Below are positions 39,945-48,678 of a stretch of DNA of 64,000 bases, piece by piece (position 1 is the first letter of the stretch; each line of letters opens with the position of its first letter). The notes beneath the pieces are model-generated. The model was not told the DNA's origin. It saw only the letters and a program-made list of their open reading frames with translations, and searched no databases. Source of the DNA: a filamentous cyanobacterium CCP3 (lineage in GTDB: Bacteria; Cyanobacteriota; Cyanobacteriia; Phormidesmidales; Phormidesmidaceae); assembly GCA_003022385.1 (NCBI GenBank), contig PYGV01000004.1, forward strand, positions 1 through 64,000, read 5' to 3'. Both the position numbers and the translations under genes were made by a program.

Positions 39945-40164
39945 AACCTGGAAGTTTCTCGAACTTTGGGTGGATCCAGTATTGTTTCCGCCCAAAGTTT
40001 TAATGTTGATTGGCGACCAAGACGGAACCTGCAAAATTTTTAGTCCGGGCGCAGATTATAAGCTGGTGGTTGCTCACTCCAGCTACGAAACCGCAAGGGC
40101 ATGGCTACTGGAGGACGAATATGAACGAGTTCAGGGTCAACTCTTGGCCGAAGAGGTTCTTTGA
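39907..40164 (+). CDS. Small hypothetical protein, partner of the preceding gene
   Basis: 85 residues: MLSHELALAEQSKTWKF, VDPVLFPPKVLMLIGDQDG, SPGADYKLVVAHSSYETARAWLLEDEYE. It overlaps the upstream gene by 38 bases in another frame, so translation is probably coupled. No known family. The pairing and size suggest a toxin-antitoxin or similar cassette, but no toxin fold is recognised. Confidence 0.6.
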   Translation: MLSHELALAEQSKTWKFLELWVDPVLFPPKVLMLIGDQDGTCKIFSPGADYKLVVAHSSYETARAWLLEDEYERVQGQLLAEEVL

Positions 40165-40241
40165 CTCGTCAACACACAAAAATGGCACGCCATAACATTG
40201 CTGTATGGCACCCCTGCTACTCTACTTCTGCGTTCCCTGCC

Positions 40242-40616
40242 ATGCACGAAACCGACATGACCAAGGCCCTGATTCTCACTGTGCGCGACTGGTGGGAAGC
40301 GCAGCCGGGGCAGCCTGCGATCGAGAAGGTACACCTGACGGTGGGAAAGTTTACCTGCGTAGAGCCCGTGGGTTTGCAGTTTGCCTTTGACGTACAAACC
40401 AGGGGCACCTTTTTAGACGGAGCCGAACTGGTGATTCGCGAAACGCCGCTGATTGCCTTCTGCCACGACTGCCAGAGCGAGTATCGCCCTGAAATTGGCC
40501 TGCAATACGCCTGCCCCACCTGCCAGTCGCCTATGGGCGACATTCGCTCGGGGCGCGAGCTGAAGATCGATCGGGTGGAATATGCCGAGGCGGCTAGCCC
40601 GACGACTCTTTCTTAG
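40242..40616 (+). CDS. ghaA: HypA-like nickel chaperone (GhaA type)
   Basis: 124 residues. Begins MHETDMTKALILTVRDW, where Met1-His2-Glu3 form the nickel site of HypA proteins, which decides the start at 40242. Two CxxC pairs (CHDCQSEY, CPTCQSP) bind zinc. HypA normally helps load nickel into hydrogenase, but no hydrogenase genes are seen. Its place beside gdmH matches the GhaA activator of Synechocystis guanidine hydrolase, thought to help insert nickel. The symbol is by context. Confidence 0.85.
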   Translation: MHETDMTKALILTVRDWWEAQPGQPAIEKVHLTVGKFTCVEPVGLQFAFDVQTRGTFLDGAELVIRETPLIAFCHDCQSEYRPEIGLQYACPTCQSPMGDIRSGRELKIDRVEYAEAASPTTLS

Positions 40617-40661
40617 CCTGGGATAAACTGAGAGTTATAAAATAGCCAAAGTCCACCAGCC

Positions 40662-40985
40662 ATGCCCGCTCAAAGCCGCTTTTTAGATCAGCTTCAGGTG
40701 CTCAATACCCTACATCAAAGGGGTTACCACAGCGACCTGATGGAACGCTCCCTGGCCAAAATGATCGATGTAGAGCGTAGCCAGGCTCTTCAACAGGCTG
40801 CCGACCTGCAAGCCAAGCTCCAGGTCTACGAAAACCAGTACCATCAGCCCTCGGATGCCTTCTACAAACAGTTCAACGCTGGGGAATTGGGCGACAGCAT
40901 AGACTTTGTCGAGTGGAGCATCGTCTACGATATGTGGCAGGCCGTTCAGATGCGCCTCAGCGTTTTACAGCCCATTGGCTCATGA
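40662..40985 (+). CDS. Putative antitoxin-side gene of a TumE-like cassette
   Basis: 107 residues, mostly helical (FLDQLQVLNTLHQRGYHSDLM, QALQQAADLQAKLQVYENQYH, DFVEWSIVYDMWQAVQMRL). The stop codon TGA is directly followed by the ATG of the TumE-like gene, which indicates tight translational coupling. No helix-turn-helix DNA-binding signature is evident, so the antitoxin label rests on position alone. Confidence 0.6.
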   Translation: MPAQSRFLDQLQVLNTLHQRGYHSDLMERSLAKMIDVERSQALQQAADLQAKLQVYENQYHQPSDAFYKQFNAGELGDSIDFVEWSIVYDMWQAVQMRLSVLQPIGS

Positions 40986-41390
40986 ATGGATGCGCAACAG
41001 TATCTCACTGAAATCAAATCCAGATTAATTGCCAGTCCTGTAGTCGAGACCTTCTCAATTGTTGACGAACGAGATCTATCCGACCGGGGTTATTTTCGGG
41101 CTCGAGTCAGGCTGACAAACACTGATTTTTTAGAAATTGCAGAGTACTTTCTCATCATTGAGAACCAACCCAGGGTAGAACGCTATCGCTATCAGTGGAT
41201 GGATAGAGCCCAAGAGACACTCCGCAAGCGCTGGGACAACGTTCCCCACTTTCCAGACCTGCCTAACTTTCCTCACCATGTCCACATTAGTGCCGAAGAC
41301 AATGTGAAAACCGCTGTACCAAGAGGCATCACAGAGTTTCTGACTTTCCTAGAGGCAGAGATCTTGCCAGAACCCGAGTCCGTTGATTAG
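40986..41390 (+). CDS. TumE-family (DUF6516-like) toxin-type protein
   Basis: 134 residues. Segments [70 protein letters not shown] match the TumE/DUF6516 family annotated as a toxin of type-II-like systems. The [13 protein letters not shown] stretch is its hallmark. It starts immediately after the preceding stop (TGAATG). Biochemical activity is not known to me. The cassette sits between the two nickel-chaperone genes. Confidence 0.75.
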
Positions 41391-41439
41391 TGCTAATCGC
41401 CAATCCAAAATCCAAAACCTCAAATCTAAAATTCCAATC

Positions 41440-42165
41440 ATGCACCAAACCTTTGACGCTGCTTTAGGCATCGACCTGCTTCACGTTAATCAGAGCGGGG
41501 CCGACCACAACCGCGCCCACTTCGATCGCTGGGGCATCACCTGCATGAATATCATGAGCAGCCCGGGGGCAGGCAAAACGGCGCTGCTGGAGCGCACCCT
41601 GGAGGGGCTGCATGGGGACCTGGCGATCGCCATCATCGAAGGCGACATGACCACCGAACTCGACGCCGATCGCCTGCGCCAGTACGGGGTGCCAGTGATT
41701 GCCATTAACACGGGGCGATCGTGCCACCTCGACGCCAAGATGGTAGCGGGCGGCATTCACACCCTGGAGCACAGCTACGACCCCAACATCCTCGATCTGG
41801 TGCTGGTCGAGAACGTGGGCAATCTGGTGTGCCCTGCCGAGTTTGAAGTGGGCGAACATGCCAAGGTGGCGCTGCTGAGCGTCACCGAGGGAGAAGACAA
41901 GCCCCTCAAGTATCCAATCATGTTTCAGGAGGCCGACTGTCTGCTGATTACTAAGGTCGATCTGGCCCCCTATCTAGACGTGAGCATTGAGCAGATCGCG
42001 GCCAACGTGCGGCAAATGAACCCCCACTGCACCATCATTCCGGTTTCCGCAAAAACCGGAGAAGGGCTGGAGGCGTGGTTTAACTGGATGAAAGTAAACG
42101 TCGTTACCGTTGGTGAAGCGCGCATTCAACCCACTGCCGCACAGACCTCTCACACCCACGCGTAG
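41440..42165 (+). CDS. ghaB: HypB-like nickel GTPase (GhaB type)
   Basis: 241 residues. A SIMIBI GTPase: P-loop [30 protein letters not shown], metal-site [10 protein letters not shown] and GNLVCPAEF, base recognition TKVDLAPY. HypB supplies nickel with HypA; with gdmH upstream it matches GhaB of the guanidine-hydrolase system. N-terminal His-rich nickel-storage region is missing, but the end is SHTHA. Start at ATG 41440 ([17 protein letters not shown]), since the earlier frame translates a repetitive CCAAAAT leader. Confidence 0.88.
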
Positions 42166-44054: not shown

Positions 44055-44723
44055 TTGCAGGGATTGACGAAGGAAAAGCCCATCTTAATCACCTGTTTGG
44101 CTGCCGGGGGAGCACTGGCTGTTTTGACGTTGCTGGTCCGATCGGGTCCCGGCAGCACCCCCTCGCTGCCGCCGCCGCCACCCAGTGCCGAAAGTTTGAA
44201 CATTGAAACGGTGCCCGTGCCCCCAAGTATTAACCAGGTTACCCCTCAAGAGCGACTGGAGCGCGACATGACCCGGCAGGAAGACCTGGTTAACGCCCTG
44301 CAAGACGAACTGGAGGCTCAAAAAGACCTGGCCGACGACCTCAAAGCCCAGCTCGAACGTCAGCAAGCCGAAACTGAGCAGGTGATGGCCCAGCTTGACA
44401 ACTATCAAACGGCAGTCGAAGAAATGACCTCTCAGCAGGTGCGGCTGATCGAGTCTATCCCGCGCAACAACGAAACCCAGACCATGATTCTCTGGGGCAT
44501 TTTGGGTCTGTTTCTCATGCTAATGCTGGGCGGCGGTACTGCCTTTGCCATTATTGCCCTGTGGCTGATGCACATTCAGAGGCGCACCCAACAGCCGCCG
44601 CCGATGGTGTACCCCATGCGGATGCCTCCCAGCCCCTACTACTACTATGAACGGCAGCCTCTGCCGCCCCCTGTACAGCAGCAGCCCTATGTGCAGTACG
44701 ACATTAGGCCCTATCAGGACTGA
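44055..44723 (+). CDS. Membrane coiled-coil protein with proline-rich ends
   Basis: 222 residues, not recognised. First helix [19 protein letters not shown], a Pro-rich stretch, a coiled coil (about 65-140: RLERDMTRQEDLVNALQDEL, KAQLERQQAETEQVMAQL), a second helix (MILWGILGLFLMLMLGGGT), then a Pro/Tyr-rich tail. Both ends of the coil are membrane-linked, so it may hang as a loop across a compartment. Start uncertain: TTG at 44055 or 44064. It precedes the PlsY/PEP-synthase-like gene by about 200 bases. Confidence 0.65.
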   Translation: MQGLTKEKPILITCLAAGGALAVLTLLVRSGPGSTPSLPPPPPSAESLNIETVPVPPSINQVTPQERLERDMTRQEDLVNALQDELEAQKDLADDLKAQLERQQAETEQVMAQLDNYQTAVEEMTSQQVRLIESIPRNNETQTMILWGILGLFLMLMLGGGTAFAIIALWLMHIQRRTQQPPPMVYPMRMPPSPYYYYERQPLPPPVQQQPYVQYDIRPYQD

Positions 44724-44925: not shown

Positions 44926-47904
44926 ATGGCCATGACCCTCACCCAGGTTTGGGGTGCTTTTCTCATTTTTGTGCTGTCGCCCATCGTGGGCGGGCTGCCC
45001 CTGACGGGATGGTCGACATGGCTGTTGTCGGGGCAGCGGTTGCGGCGTGTGGGTACGGGCAACGTGGGCGTGTCGGCCGCATTTTATCACGGCGGCAAGC
45101 TGGCGGGCGTTGTGGCGGTGCTGCTGGAGGCGGCCAAGGGCATTGGGGTGGTGCTGCTGGCTCGCTACTACTTCCCGACGGAGCCAGTGTGGGAGATTAT
45201 TGCCCTGATTGGCCTGGTGATGGGGCGATACTGGTTTGCCAAGGGGGCGGGCACCACAAATGTGGTGTGGGGTGTTGCGGTCTATGACTGGGTGACGGCA
45301 CTGCTGACGTTTATGCTCAGCGGGCTGGGGTTTACCATTTTTCGCGAGCGGCGTCAGGGTCGGCTACTGTCCCTGGTGCTGCTGCCACTAATTACGGCCC
45401 TGCGACATCAGGATGGAGCGCTGGTGTTGGCGATGACCTGCCTGAGCGTGCTGATAGGCTGGATCTATCAGAAACTGCCTGACGACCTAGATTTGCCTGA
45501 GGAAGAAGGACGATTGGAGTCTCGCACCATGTTTCGTTTTTTTCGCGGCGATCGCAGCCTGGTAGCCCTTGACCAACCTCTCGATGCCGCTAAGTTTGGC
45601 CAAAAAGCCGCTACCCTGGGCCAGCTGCGGGCCTGGGGCTACCCAGTACCGCGCGGCTACGTGCTGCCCGCTGGAGATGACCCGACCGCGCTGCTGGCGA
45701 TCGCAGAGCCCTCCCCCACCCAGCCTCTGGCGGTGCGCTCCTCAGCCCTGGATGAAGATATGGGCACCGCTTCGGCGGCGGGGGTATACCAGTCGTTTTT
45801 GAATATCACCGACCAGGAGGGGCTGGCCGCGGCGATCGTGCGGGTGTTTTCGTCCTACAACGCTCCCCGAGCCAAAGAATATCGGCAGAGCCAGGAGCTG
45901 CCCGAGCAGGGCCTGGCGGTAATTGTGCAGCAGCAGGTGCGGGGGCAGTTTTCGGGGGTGGCTTTTAGTCGCGACCCGATCGCCCGCTGTGGCGATGCGG
46001 TGATCATTGAAGCGCTGCCGGGTGGGGCCGATCAGGTGGTGGGCGGTCAGGTGACCCCCGAGCAGTACCGGGTGCTGGTACAGCCCGACGATGTGCCACC
46101 GCTGGCCGAAATTGCCGAGGCCGACTGGCATCTCTCCGACGCCCTAACGCTAACGGTGGAGGGCGAGGGCCAAACCCCGTCGCGGCTGTTGCAGCAGGTG
46201 GCCTACCTGGCTCGCCACCTGGAGAGCCGCTACCAGGGCGTACCCCAAGATATTGAATGGACCTACGACGGCGAGACGCTGTGGCTGTTGCAGAGCCGCC
46301 CGGTTACCACCCTGCATCCGCTGTGGACGCGCAAGATTGCCGCCGAGGTGATCCCCGGTGCGATTCGGCCTCTGACCTGGTCGATCAATCGGCCTCTGAC
46401 CTGCGGGGTGTGGGGCGAAATTTTTACGGTGGTGCTGGGCGATCGCGCCCAGGGTCTCGACTTTGAGGCAACGGCTACCCTACACCATGCCCACGCCTAC
46501 TTCAACGCTACACTGCTGGGCAATATTTTTAGACGCATGGGCCTGCCGCCTGAGAGCCTGGAGTTTCTGACTCGGGGGGCAAAATTTAGCCGCCCGCCGC
46601 TGAAGTCTACCCTGCGCAACCTGCCCGGTCTGCTGCGGCTGGTGGGCCGCGAACTCAAGCTCGAGCAGGAGTTTGCTCAGGAGAATCGCGATCGCTTTGC
46701 CCCTACCCTACAGTCGCTGGCGGATACTCCCACCAATACCTTGAACCCGGCGGAACTGCTCGACCGCATCGAAACCATCCTCGATCTTCTCAAGCGCGTC
46801 ACCTACTACAACATTCTCGGCCCGCTCAGCTTTGCCCTGCGCCGCGCCCTCTTCAAAGTGCCGGAAGAGAGCCTGAACCCGATGCAAAACGCCGAGATTG
46901 CGGCCCTAGATTCCCTGCGGGCGATCGCCCACGACATTCGCCAAACCCTCTCTACCCCCGAGCTAAACCGCATTACCGACAGCTCCTCGCTGATGACCGC
47001 CCTGGCCGAAAGCACCGACGGCGAGTCGCTGCTGAAGGAAATGGACCAGTTTGTTGACCAGTACGGCTATCTCAGCCCCGTCGGCACCGATATTGCCGTC
47101 GCCACCTGGCAAGAAAACCCCGGCCCCGTGCGCGAGCTACTGGCCCAGTTTGTCAAGCAGCCGCCCGCCCCTAAAACGACGACCTCATCCCCCACCGGCA
47201 AGGCCGCCCTGGTGCAGCAGCGGCTTGATCTCAAGGGACAGGTCAACACGATCTACAACCGGCTCCTGGCCGAGCTGCGCTGGAGCATTCTGGCCCTGGC
47301 AACCCAGTGGCAAGAGCAGCGCCATTTGCAGGAGCGCGACGACATTTTCTTTCTCACGCTGGAGGAGATTCAGGCTCGGGTGAGGGGGAATGTCGCACCT
47401 AATTGGACAAGGATGCGCGGAAAAATTGGCGATCGCAAAGCCCAGTACGACCAGGACAGGCAGCTGCCCGCCGTGCCCTACCTGGTGTTTGGCAACGAGC
47501 CCCCCAGCCGCGATCTATCGCCCATGCCGAGCGCGACCGTGCAGCAAAAGCTCTCGGGCATCGGAGCCAGCGCGGGCATTGTGGCGGGTCCGGTGTTGGT
47601 AATGACTCAGCTGGAAACGGTCGCCACCGAGGGACCGTTCATTCTCGTAGTGCCCTACACCGATGCAGGCTGGGCACCTCTGCTCGCTCGCGCCCAGGGG
47701 CTGATTGCCGAAGTCGGCGGTCGTCTCTCCCACGGGGCAATCATTGCCAGGGAATACGGCATTCCAGCGGTCATGGATGTCACCAACGCCACCCAGCGCC
47801 TGCACAGCGGTCAGTGGGTTCGTCTCAACGGCGAAACCGGCACCGTAGAGGTGCTAGACCCTGCCGCCCATCAGCCCCCCGCCCTTGAAGCCAGCCAGGA
47901 CTAA
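44926..47904 (+). CDS. Fusion of degenerate PlsY-like membrane domain and PEP-synthase-like phosphotransferase
   Basis: 992 residues. Residues 1-185 resemble the acyl-phosphate glycerol-3-phosphate acyltransferase PlsY (multi-pass; RRVGTGNVGVSAAFYHGGKLAG and LEAAKGIG match its GSGNxGATN and KG motifs), but the GHxF and KGGKGVAT motif is GRYWFAKGAGTTN, so the acyl site is doubtful. Residues ~205-460 are an ATP/PEP-binding grasp domain (FGQKAATLGQLRAWGYPVPRG, AVRSSALDEDMGTASAAGVYQ, QGVPQDIEWTYDG, LLQSRPVTT). After a long helical stretch the C-terminus is a phosphohistidine swivel (GGRLSHGAIIAREYGIPAV, His936). The latter two match PEP synthase and rifampicin phosphotransferase. Substrate unknown; perhaps a membrane-linked phosphate transfer. 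Start at ATG 44926 (TTG at 44917 possible). Confidence 0.85.
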   Translation: MAMTLTQVWGAFLIFVLSPIVGGLPLTGWSTWLLSGQRLRRVGTGNVGVSAAFYHGGKLAGVVAVLLEAAKGIGVVLLARYYFPTEPVWEIIALIGLVMGRYWFAKGAGTTNVVWGVAVYDWVTALLTFMLSGLGFTIFRERRQGRLLSLVLLPLITALRHQDGALVLAMTCLSVLIGWIYQKLPDDLDLPEEEGRLESRTMFRFFRGDRSLVALDQPLDAAKFGQKAATLGQLRAWGYPVPRGYVLPAGDDPTALLAIAEPSPTQPLAVRSSALDEDMGTASAAGVYQSFLNITDQEGLAAAIVRVFSSYNAPRAKEYRQSQELPEQGLAVIVQQQVRGQFSGVAFSRDPIARCGDAVIIEALPGGADQVVGGQVTPEQYRVLVQPDDVPPLAEIAEADWHLSDALTLTVEGEGQTPSRLLQQVAYLARHLESRYQGVPQDIEWTYDGETLWLLQSRPVTTLHPLWTRKIAAEVIPGAIRPLTWSINRPLTCGVWGEIFTVVLGDRAQGLDFEATATLHHAHAYFNATLLGNIFRRMGLPPESLEFLTRGAKFSRPPLKSTLRNLPGLLRLVGRELKLEQEFAQENRDRFAPTLQSLADTPTNTLNPAELLDRIETILDLLKRVTYYNILGPLSFALRRALFKVPEESLNPMQNAEIAALDSLRAIAHDIRQTLSTPELNRITDSSSLMTALAESTDGESLLKEMDQFVDQYGYLSPVGTDIAVATWQENPGPVRELLAQFVKQPPAPKTTTSSPTGKAALVQQRLDLKGQVNTIYNRLLAELRWSILALATQWQEQRHLQERDDIFFLTLEEIQARVRGNVAPNWTRMRGKIGDRKAQYDQDRQLPAVPYLVFGNEPPSRDLSPMPSATVQQKLSGIGASAGIVAGPVLVMTQLETVATEGPFILVVPYTDAGWAPLLARAQGLIAEVGGRLSHGAIIAREYGIPAVMDVTNATQRLHSGQWVRLNGETGTVEVLDPAAHQPPALEASQD

Positions 47905-48042: not shown

Positions 48043-48678
48043 ATGAATAGTCACCAAGGCGGGGCGCAAGCCCTCGGCTGGATTGTTGCGTTGAGCGTGG
48101 GCGTCGGCATTATGGCAGAGTTAAGTCAATCTACCCCCCAGGTCATTGCTGAAGAACAGGTAGCGGCCGTAGAAGCCGCCCCTGCGAACCCCTGGGCCGG
48201 GGCTTCCTTTCCGCTCGAAAAATTTACGGCCTATACCTCACCCTTTGGCTATCGGCAGCACCCAATGGGCGGCCACCGCTTTCACTACGGGCTAGATCTG
48301 GCCGCCCCTATGGGTAGCTACGTCCGCAGCTGGTGGGAAGGTAAAGTTATTCAGGTATCAGACAACACCGCCTGCGGCACTTCAGCGATTATTCAATCGG
48401 GCAACTGGACTCACATTTACTGCCACATGGTGGGCCACATGGTAATCGAAAAAGAAGGCGGGCGCGTGCTGGTCGATCGCGATGGCGGCATTGAGCTGCG
48501 CCAGGGGCAAATGGTGACCTCGGGCCAGCGCATTGGCCGCGTCGGCATGACCGGCAGCACCACTGGGCCGCACCTGCACTGGGGCCTCAAGTACGACGGG
48601 GCTTGGGTAGACCCAGCCCTGGTGATCAAGGCCGGGTTCGACTATCAGCAGCTACAGACGGCGCAGGCCGTCAATTAA
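48043..48678 (+). CDS. M23 (LytM) family metallopeptidase
   Basis: 211 residues: N-terminal hydrophobic signal/anchor (LGWIVALSVGVGIMAEL), then a LytM domain. Zinc ligands: HYGLD (HxxxD) and GPHLHWG (HxH), plus SPFGYRQHP. It should cut peptidoglycan cross-bridges in the periplasm or activate an amidase. Ends QAVN with a 27-base overlap into the convergent M28 gene. Confidence 0.88.
   Translation: MNSHQGGAQALGWIVALSVGVGIMAELSQSTPQVIAEEQVAAVEAAPANPWAGASFPLEKFTAYTSPFGYRQHPMGGHRFHYGLDLAAPMGSYVRSWWEGKVIQVSDNTACGTSAIIQSGNWTHIYCHMVGHMVIEKEGGRVLVDRDGGIELRQGQMVTSGQRIGRVGMTGSTTGPHLHWGLKYDGAWVDPALVIKAGFDYQQLQTAQAVN

Follow-up and report, generated by a model that had tools for sequence, protein, structure and literature searches.

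The window, a 64,000-nucleotide stretch of DNA from the filamentous cyanobacterium CCP3, encodes a polypeptide in which a PlsY-like seven-transmembrane (7-TM) domain precedes a phosphotransferase that resembles rifampicin phosphotransferase (RPH). We consider it about an even bet (probability roughly 0.5) that this protein is a membrane-bound, RPH-like small-molecule dikinase that draws a lipid-like acceptor out of the membrane by means of its PlsY-derived module. The proposal draws on computed observations, namely the architecture and folds, the intact residues for the first half-reaction, the loss of the PlsY clamp, the co-inheritance of the two parts and their joint loss in pseudoenzyme lineages.

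The initial annotation had been aware of no described function for such a protein, and the open-licence subset of papers that we searched likewise held no description of a PlsY-dikinase fusion. Public domain databases probably display this fusion order, and our claim is "not found described" rather than "never seen". The folds and half of the chemistry are already known; what is new for the RPH-like superfamily is the architecture that results from combining them. If our reading is correct, a widely conserved cyanobacterial enzyme makes a yet-unassigned phosphorylated membrane compound, and a phosphohistidine swivel kinase works on a bilayer substrate. PlsY or PEP-synthase domains are matched in many members, and metabolic models would be led astray if automatic pipelines assigned either name.

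Domain order and the kinase part

The fusion gene lies at positions 44926–47904 on the forward strand and specifies 992 amino acids plus the stop codon. The open reading frame starts at ATG 44926 or TTG 44917, ends at 47904 and has no internal stops. An ATG at 44926 or 44932 is favored by the conserved N terminus (MxMTLTQVWG), and residues are numbered here with the Met at 44926 as 1. The protein matches the Pfam families G3P_acyltransf (57.9 bits; cut-off, 24.1), PPDK_N (147.9 bits; cut-off, 27), and PEP-utilizers (79 bits; cut-off, 23.1), and all three were matched in each of the 27 members of a diverse alignment. The 7-TM PlsY-like domain comes first and is followed by a shortened ATP-grasp domain, then by a large middle domain, and last by the phosphohistidine swivel domain. 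Foldseek searches with a full-length AlphaFold model recovered RPH (PDB: 5hv1; E 1.3e-26, with approximately 900 columns covered) and PlsY (PDB: 5xj5; E 2e-4). The model has a pLDDT of 79.9 and a pTM of 0.59, and its interdomain placement is of low confidence and does not fix the domain arrangement.

The ATP-grasp domain (PPDK_N; residues 215–463, positions 45568–46314, forward strand) lacks part of its N-terminal lobe, with the PPDK_N match beginning at profile position 100, and retains the motifs GQKAATL (Lys227), VRSSALDED (Arg271 and Glu277), PQDIEW (Glu444), and QSRP (Gln456 and Arg458), the named residues being conserved in the family. The middle, acceptor-side domain (residues 464–870, positions 46315–47535, forward strand) contains the block that is best conserved in the family, WTRKIAAEVIPGxIxPLTWSIN. 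The swivel domain (residues 871–980, positions 47536–47865, forward strand; PF00391, 79 bits) includes the putative catalytic His936 (positions 47731–47733, forward strand) within the sequence EVGGRLSHGAIIAREYGIPAV; this residue aligns with the RPH histidine and sits in a GGxxxH motif (EVGGRLSHGAI), which agrees with the SHGA swivel proposed in the initial annotation. Residues expected to serve His phosphorylation are nearly fixed among 115 aligned homologues: Arg271, Glu444, and Arg458 occur in all 115, Lys227 in 112, and His936 in 111.

RPH structures are the best solved relatives of the kinase part (phmmer, E about 1e-49), and Lys227, Arg271, Glu277, Glu444, and Arg458 align with the RPH Lys/Arg/Glu set. 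RPH (PDB: 5fbs and 5hv1; PMC4844700) has in common with the fusion an ATP-grasp domain, a large middle domain, and a C-terminal His swivel, and the equivalents of RPH Lys22, Arg117, and His825 are retained. Unlike RPH, the fusion carries an additional 7-TM domain, has a shortened ATP-grasp N terminus, and lacks the acceptor-site R-E-x-x-K block, which reads REYPK in the Bacillus and Streptomyces RPHs of our alignment; identity is approximately 25%. Invariant Arg766 and Lys770 lie near the position of this block where the alignment is ambiguous, and an equivalence of Arg766/Leu767/Lys770 with RPH Arg666/Glu667/Lys670 was dropped because it became ambiguous when real RPHs were aligned. With the ATP-grasp set, the His swivel, and an RPH-type middle domain without a barrel all present, the sequence features place the protein in the RPH-like superfamily. 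Members of this superfamily can act on non-antibiotic small molecules, as illustrated by the two-component phenolic dikinases HpeHI, CreHI, and PpsAB (PMC12167813), whose RPH-type domains are, unlike the fusion, split, soluble, and devoid of a membrane domain.

The kinase part had initially been described as PEP-synthase/rifampicin-phosphotransferase-like, and only the RPH-like chemistry stands. The ATP-grasp domain is of the ATP-binding type, which makes its earlier "PEP-binding" label wrong, and the PEP/pyruvate TIM barrel (PF02896) gave no match in the fusion protein or in the 27-member alignment. PEP synthase and pyruvate phosphate dikinase share the PPDK_N ATP-grasp domain and the PEP-utilizers swivel with the fusion but not this barrel, and the score against TIGR01418 is 165.5 bits versus a cut-off of 739.75. 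The same genome encodes a separate PEP synthase (L083), and PEP synthase was rejected as an identity on these grounds. RPH chemistry is established (PMC4844700), and the first half-reaction of the fusion can probably be read from RPH/PPDK chemistry, whereas the second cannot.

The PlsY-like membrane domain

Residues 1–183 (positions 44926–45474, forward strand) form a predicted PlsY-like 7-TM domain. The initial annotation had proposed a PlsY-like membrane domain (residues 1–185), which Pfam (PF02660, 57.9 bits), AlphaFold, and Foldseek now bear out. Modeled alone with 32 homologues, this domain gave a pLDDT of 93 and a pTM of 0.89, and the model matched PlsY structures (PDB: 5xj5–5xj8) with a TM score of about 0.74 and an rmsd of 2.7–2.8 Å (2.8 Å over 178 columns) at about 20% identity. 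Only PlsY structures were found by Foldseek at E below 0.01, and the next match was meaningless. A sequence search against the PDB barely reaches PlsY (E 0.22); therefore, the assignment is carried by fold and Pfam. A BFVD fold search with the membrane domain found no match, and a viral origin of the domain was rejected.

In PlsY, the G3P clamp is formed by Ser35, Arg45, Lys104, and Asn180 (plus His177), and the phosphate hole by His92 and the KGVA loop; Arg45, His92, Lys104, His177, and Asn180 are each needed or important (PMC5700162). To map these positions, we aligned the domain with aaPlsY and cyanobacterial PlsYs and took residue roles from the same study. The motif 1 equivalent (residues 43–57, GTGNVGVSAAFYHGG; positions 45052–45096, forward strand) shows two conservative changes, Ser35 to Thr44 and Thr41 to Ser50, and replaces Arg45 with Tyr54. 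In the motif 2 equivalent (residues 100–116, GRYWFAKGAGTTNVVWG; positions 45223–45273, forward strand), His92 is replaced by Arg101 and Lys104 by Ala108, and loop 3 is five residues shorter, the deletion falling just before the loop in which PlsY FKGGKGVAT has become FAKGAGTTN. With His177 and Asn180 replaced by Tyr181 and Leu184, nearly all of the clamp is lost, and the phosphate hole now reads Arg101 and KGAGTTN. The initial annotation's observation that GTGN and KG are kept while the His and the GGKGVAT loop are gone is thus confirmed. The fusion shares with PlsY (PDB: 5xj5–5xj9; PMC5700162) the 7-TM fold, a GTGN-like motif 1, and a D/E..KG helix motif, but it differs in its clamp and phosphate-hole residues and in the attached kinase, and it is paralogous to the PlsY of its own genome.

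The motifs that replace those of PlsY, GTGNxxVSAAFYHGG and GRYWxxKGAGTTNxxWG, are themselves near invariant. Among the 115 aligned homologues, Arg101 is found in all, Phe53, Asn112, and Trp115 in 112 each, and Tyr54 and His55 in 107 each; altogether, 15 motif sites of this domain are almost fixed. Judged by this conservation, the PlsY-like domain is re-tooled, neither decaying nor degenerate filler.

Distribution, joint loss, and gene neighborhood

The same fused order recurs in other genomes, as would be wanted of a genuine architecture. A scan for related loci gave 80 with the same domain order, all but a few of them readable as a single ORF, and 14 weaker matches were left out. All lie on cyanobacterial contigs except one labeled Candidatus Gracilibacteria (a 53% identical copy), and that contig looks cyanobacterial; the nearest loci are from the filamentous cyanobacterium CCT1 (96% identity) and Nodosilinea. 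In a phylum-wide sample of 386 genomes, a full-length profile detected the family in 106, a count that includes three degenerate and two split copies. In this search, the family was absent from a small-genome group (f20), and groups outside the class gave ordinary dikinase matches only.

Pairwise distances of the N- and C-terminal parts correlate (r = 0.83), which indicates that the halves evolved together. His936 is lost (changed to Gln) in 4 of 172 distinct sequences, three from different genomes of one group (f14; L115–L117) and one elsewhere (L132), and all four also lack at least 4 of the 15 PlsY-motif sites. In the f14 copies, motif 1 is gone altogether, as are Lys227, the E277-D278 loop, Glu474, and Trp485. 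His936 is kept without such motif loss in 166 of the 172, and two sequences (L121 and L130) lost at least 4 motif sites and kept His936. Divergence alone does not explain the joint loss because the kinase set is intact, and the PlsY-domain set largely so, in very diverged members of another group (f11; about 40% identity). The joint loss, which amounts to two independent events and is no proof, suggests from sequence comparison that the two modules may cooperate. The f14 proteins (from G205, G052, and G077) are full length, uninterrupted, and predicted to be catalytically dead, as in a retained pseudoenzyme, and their genes lie directly upstream (3–57 bp) of a PMT-type glycosyltransferase gene. 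Such natural dead versions offer a ready comparison for genetics.

Across 179 clustered loci (119 plus 60 added), we found no phylum-wide conserved partner or operon. In the window, the fusion gene is flanked by a conserved coiled-coil-like ORF (44055–44723, forward strand) and an M23 peptidase gene (48043–48678). The ORF, which has no convincing family, encodes a protein with a hydrophobic stretch at its N terminus, a region resembling a coiled coil, and a tail rich in proline; 12 related loci have a counterpart whose distance upstream of the fusion ranges from −4 to 304 bp. Further upstream are a gene for a Trypsin-co-occurring domain 1 protein (PF19493; 42919–43314, forward strand), kept beside the fusion in 10 Nodosilinea-like loci, and ORFs that by eye resemble the hydrogenase maturation genes hypA and hypB (40161–42165, forward strand). 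Same-strand neighbors limited to particular clades include a YegS/DAGK-type lipid kinase close downstream in 7 loci (at distances of 63 and 83 bp in two of them), an alpha/beta hydrolase of the Hydrolase_4 family 65–134 bp downstream in 3 loci, a PMT/ArnT-type glycosyltransferase −1 to 57 bp downstream in 6 loci, and a cupin in 10 loci. These clade-limited neighbors, selected post hoc, lean towards lipids and the envelope. PADLOC returned no match, and a role in anti-phage defense was rejected on that basis.

Proposed mechanism and alternative readings

In the mechanism that we favor, the ATP-grasp domain would pass the beta-phosphate of ATP to His936 with release of AMP and Pi, and the swivel domain would ferry the phosphate to the middle domain, where the acceptor would receive it. 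The PlsY-derived domain, its G3P acylation lost, may have been retained to bind lipid and, at the cytoplasmic surface, to present an acceptor that resides in the membrane (a lipid alcohol or acyl compound). Phosphorylation of a membrane lipid or alcohol, already suggested in the initial annotation, is the most likely outcome; we infer a lipid-like acceptor bound by the PlsY-like pocket from the fold, the conservation, the coupled loss, and a few neighbors. In PlsY, the active site occupies the cytoplasmic half of the membrane, with a clamp that opens toward the cytoplasm (PMC5700162), and in the fusion the kinase comes after TM7; therefore, the geometry is plausible. In the full-length model, with its low-confidence interdomain placement, the 7-TM pocket was not seen facing the swivel domain. 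On a broader and more tentative view, to which we give somewhat less than even odds, the fusion may represent a hitherto undescribed class of dikinase, integral to the membrane, in which a phosphohistidine swivel takes the place of a DgkA- or YegS-type kinase and a repurposed PlsY pocket delivers the membrane lipid or acyl group to be phosphorylated, in a lipid pathway widespread in cyanobacteria and missing from Prochlorococcus-like small genomes.

The PlsY-like domain could instead be a mere anchor or docking surface, with the kinase acting near the membrane on a soluble small molecule held in the middle domain. We think this unlikely, although it deserves weight: the family's most conserved block (WTRKIAAEVIPG..PLTWSIN) belongs to the middle domain, which fits an acceptor bound there, as it is in RPH, but a plain anchor needs no near-invariant pocket-loop residues (GTGNxxVSAAFYHGG, GRYW, and GAGTTN), and these are lost together with the catalytic His.

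Less probable still is that the protein makes acyl-phosphate at the expense of ATP, the phosphohistidine phosphorylating a free fatty acid in the old acyl-phosphate site and so feeding PlsX/PlsY as a cyanobacterial analogue of FakAB. With the G3P clamp gone, what the PlsY site retains is its acyl-phosphate carbonyl side (Thr41 to Ser50 and the glycine-rich loop 3); a check of five genomes found PlsX in every one, and canonical PlsY occurs in 28 of the 29 cyanobacterial genomes examined. Against this, the phosphate-hole His92 is an Arg and loop 3 is shortened, no neighbor specifically indicates fatty-acid activation, and cyanobacteria already recycle fatty acids via the acyl-ACP synthetase Aas.

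We give very little credence to the idea that the N-terminal domain still acylates glycerol-3-phosphate and that the kinase is an appendage to it. The PlsY fold and GTGN are there, and one single-contig, closed genome (G046) has the fusion and PlsX with canonical PlsY undetectable, through either an assembly gap or real loss; but Arg45, His92, Lys104, His177, and Asn180 are all replaced, the other 28 of the 29 genomes have canonical PlsY, and a congener of the exception (G227) keeps it. The question of whether PlsY occurs elsewhere in the genome, raised at the outset, is answered by a normal copy in the same genome (G000:C447:3285-3857; 168.7 bits), and this together with the residue mapping led us to reject a functional PlsY.

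A membrane-bound rifamycin or other antibiotic phosphotransferase appears just as improbable: RPH is the closest solved homologue, but the score against RIF_Ptrans_rph is 220.4 bits versus a cut-off of 999, identity to true RPHs is about 25%, and conservation across cyanobacteria is housekeeping-like. Rifampin resistance was rejected on the score and the missing REYPK acceptor motif.

An origin of the fusion by frameshift or assembly artefact merits next to no belief, being refuted by about 170 distinct homologues from cyanobacteria in which the fused order recurs, almost always as one uninterrupted ORF, although one homologue (L125 in G209) is split at the membrane/kinase boundary by a one-base deletion between QKLP and DDLDL, a shift that the window copy does not have. 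That split is either a sequencing error or a recent fission. Another genome has, besides an intact copy (L126), a second, broken one (L127; G164:C2:1155000-1166000) that consists of the N-terminal half and a distant swivel fragment.
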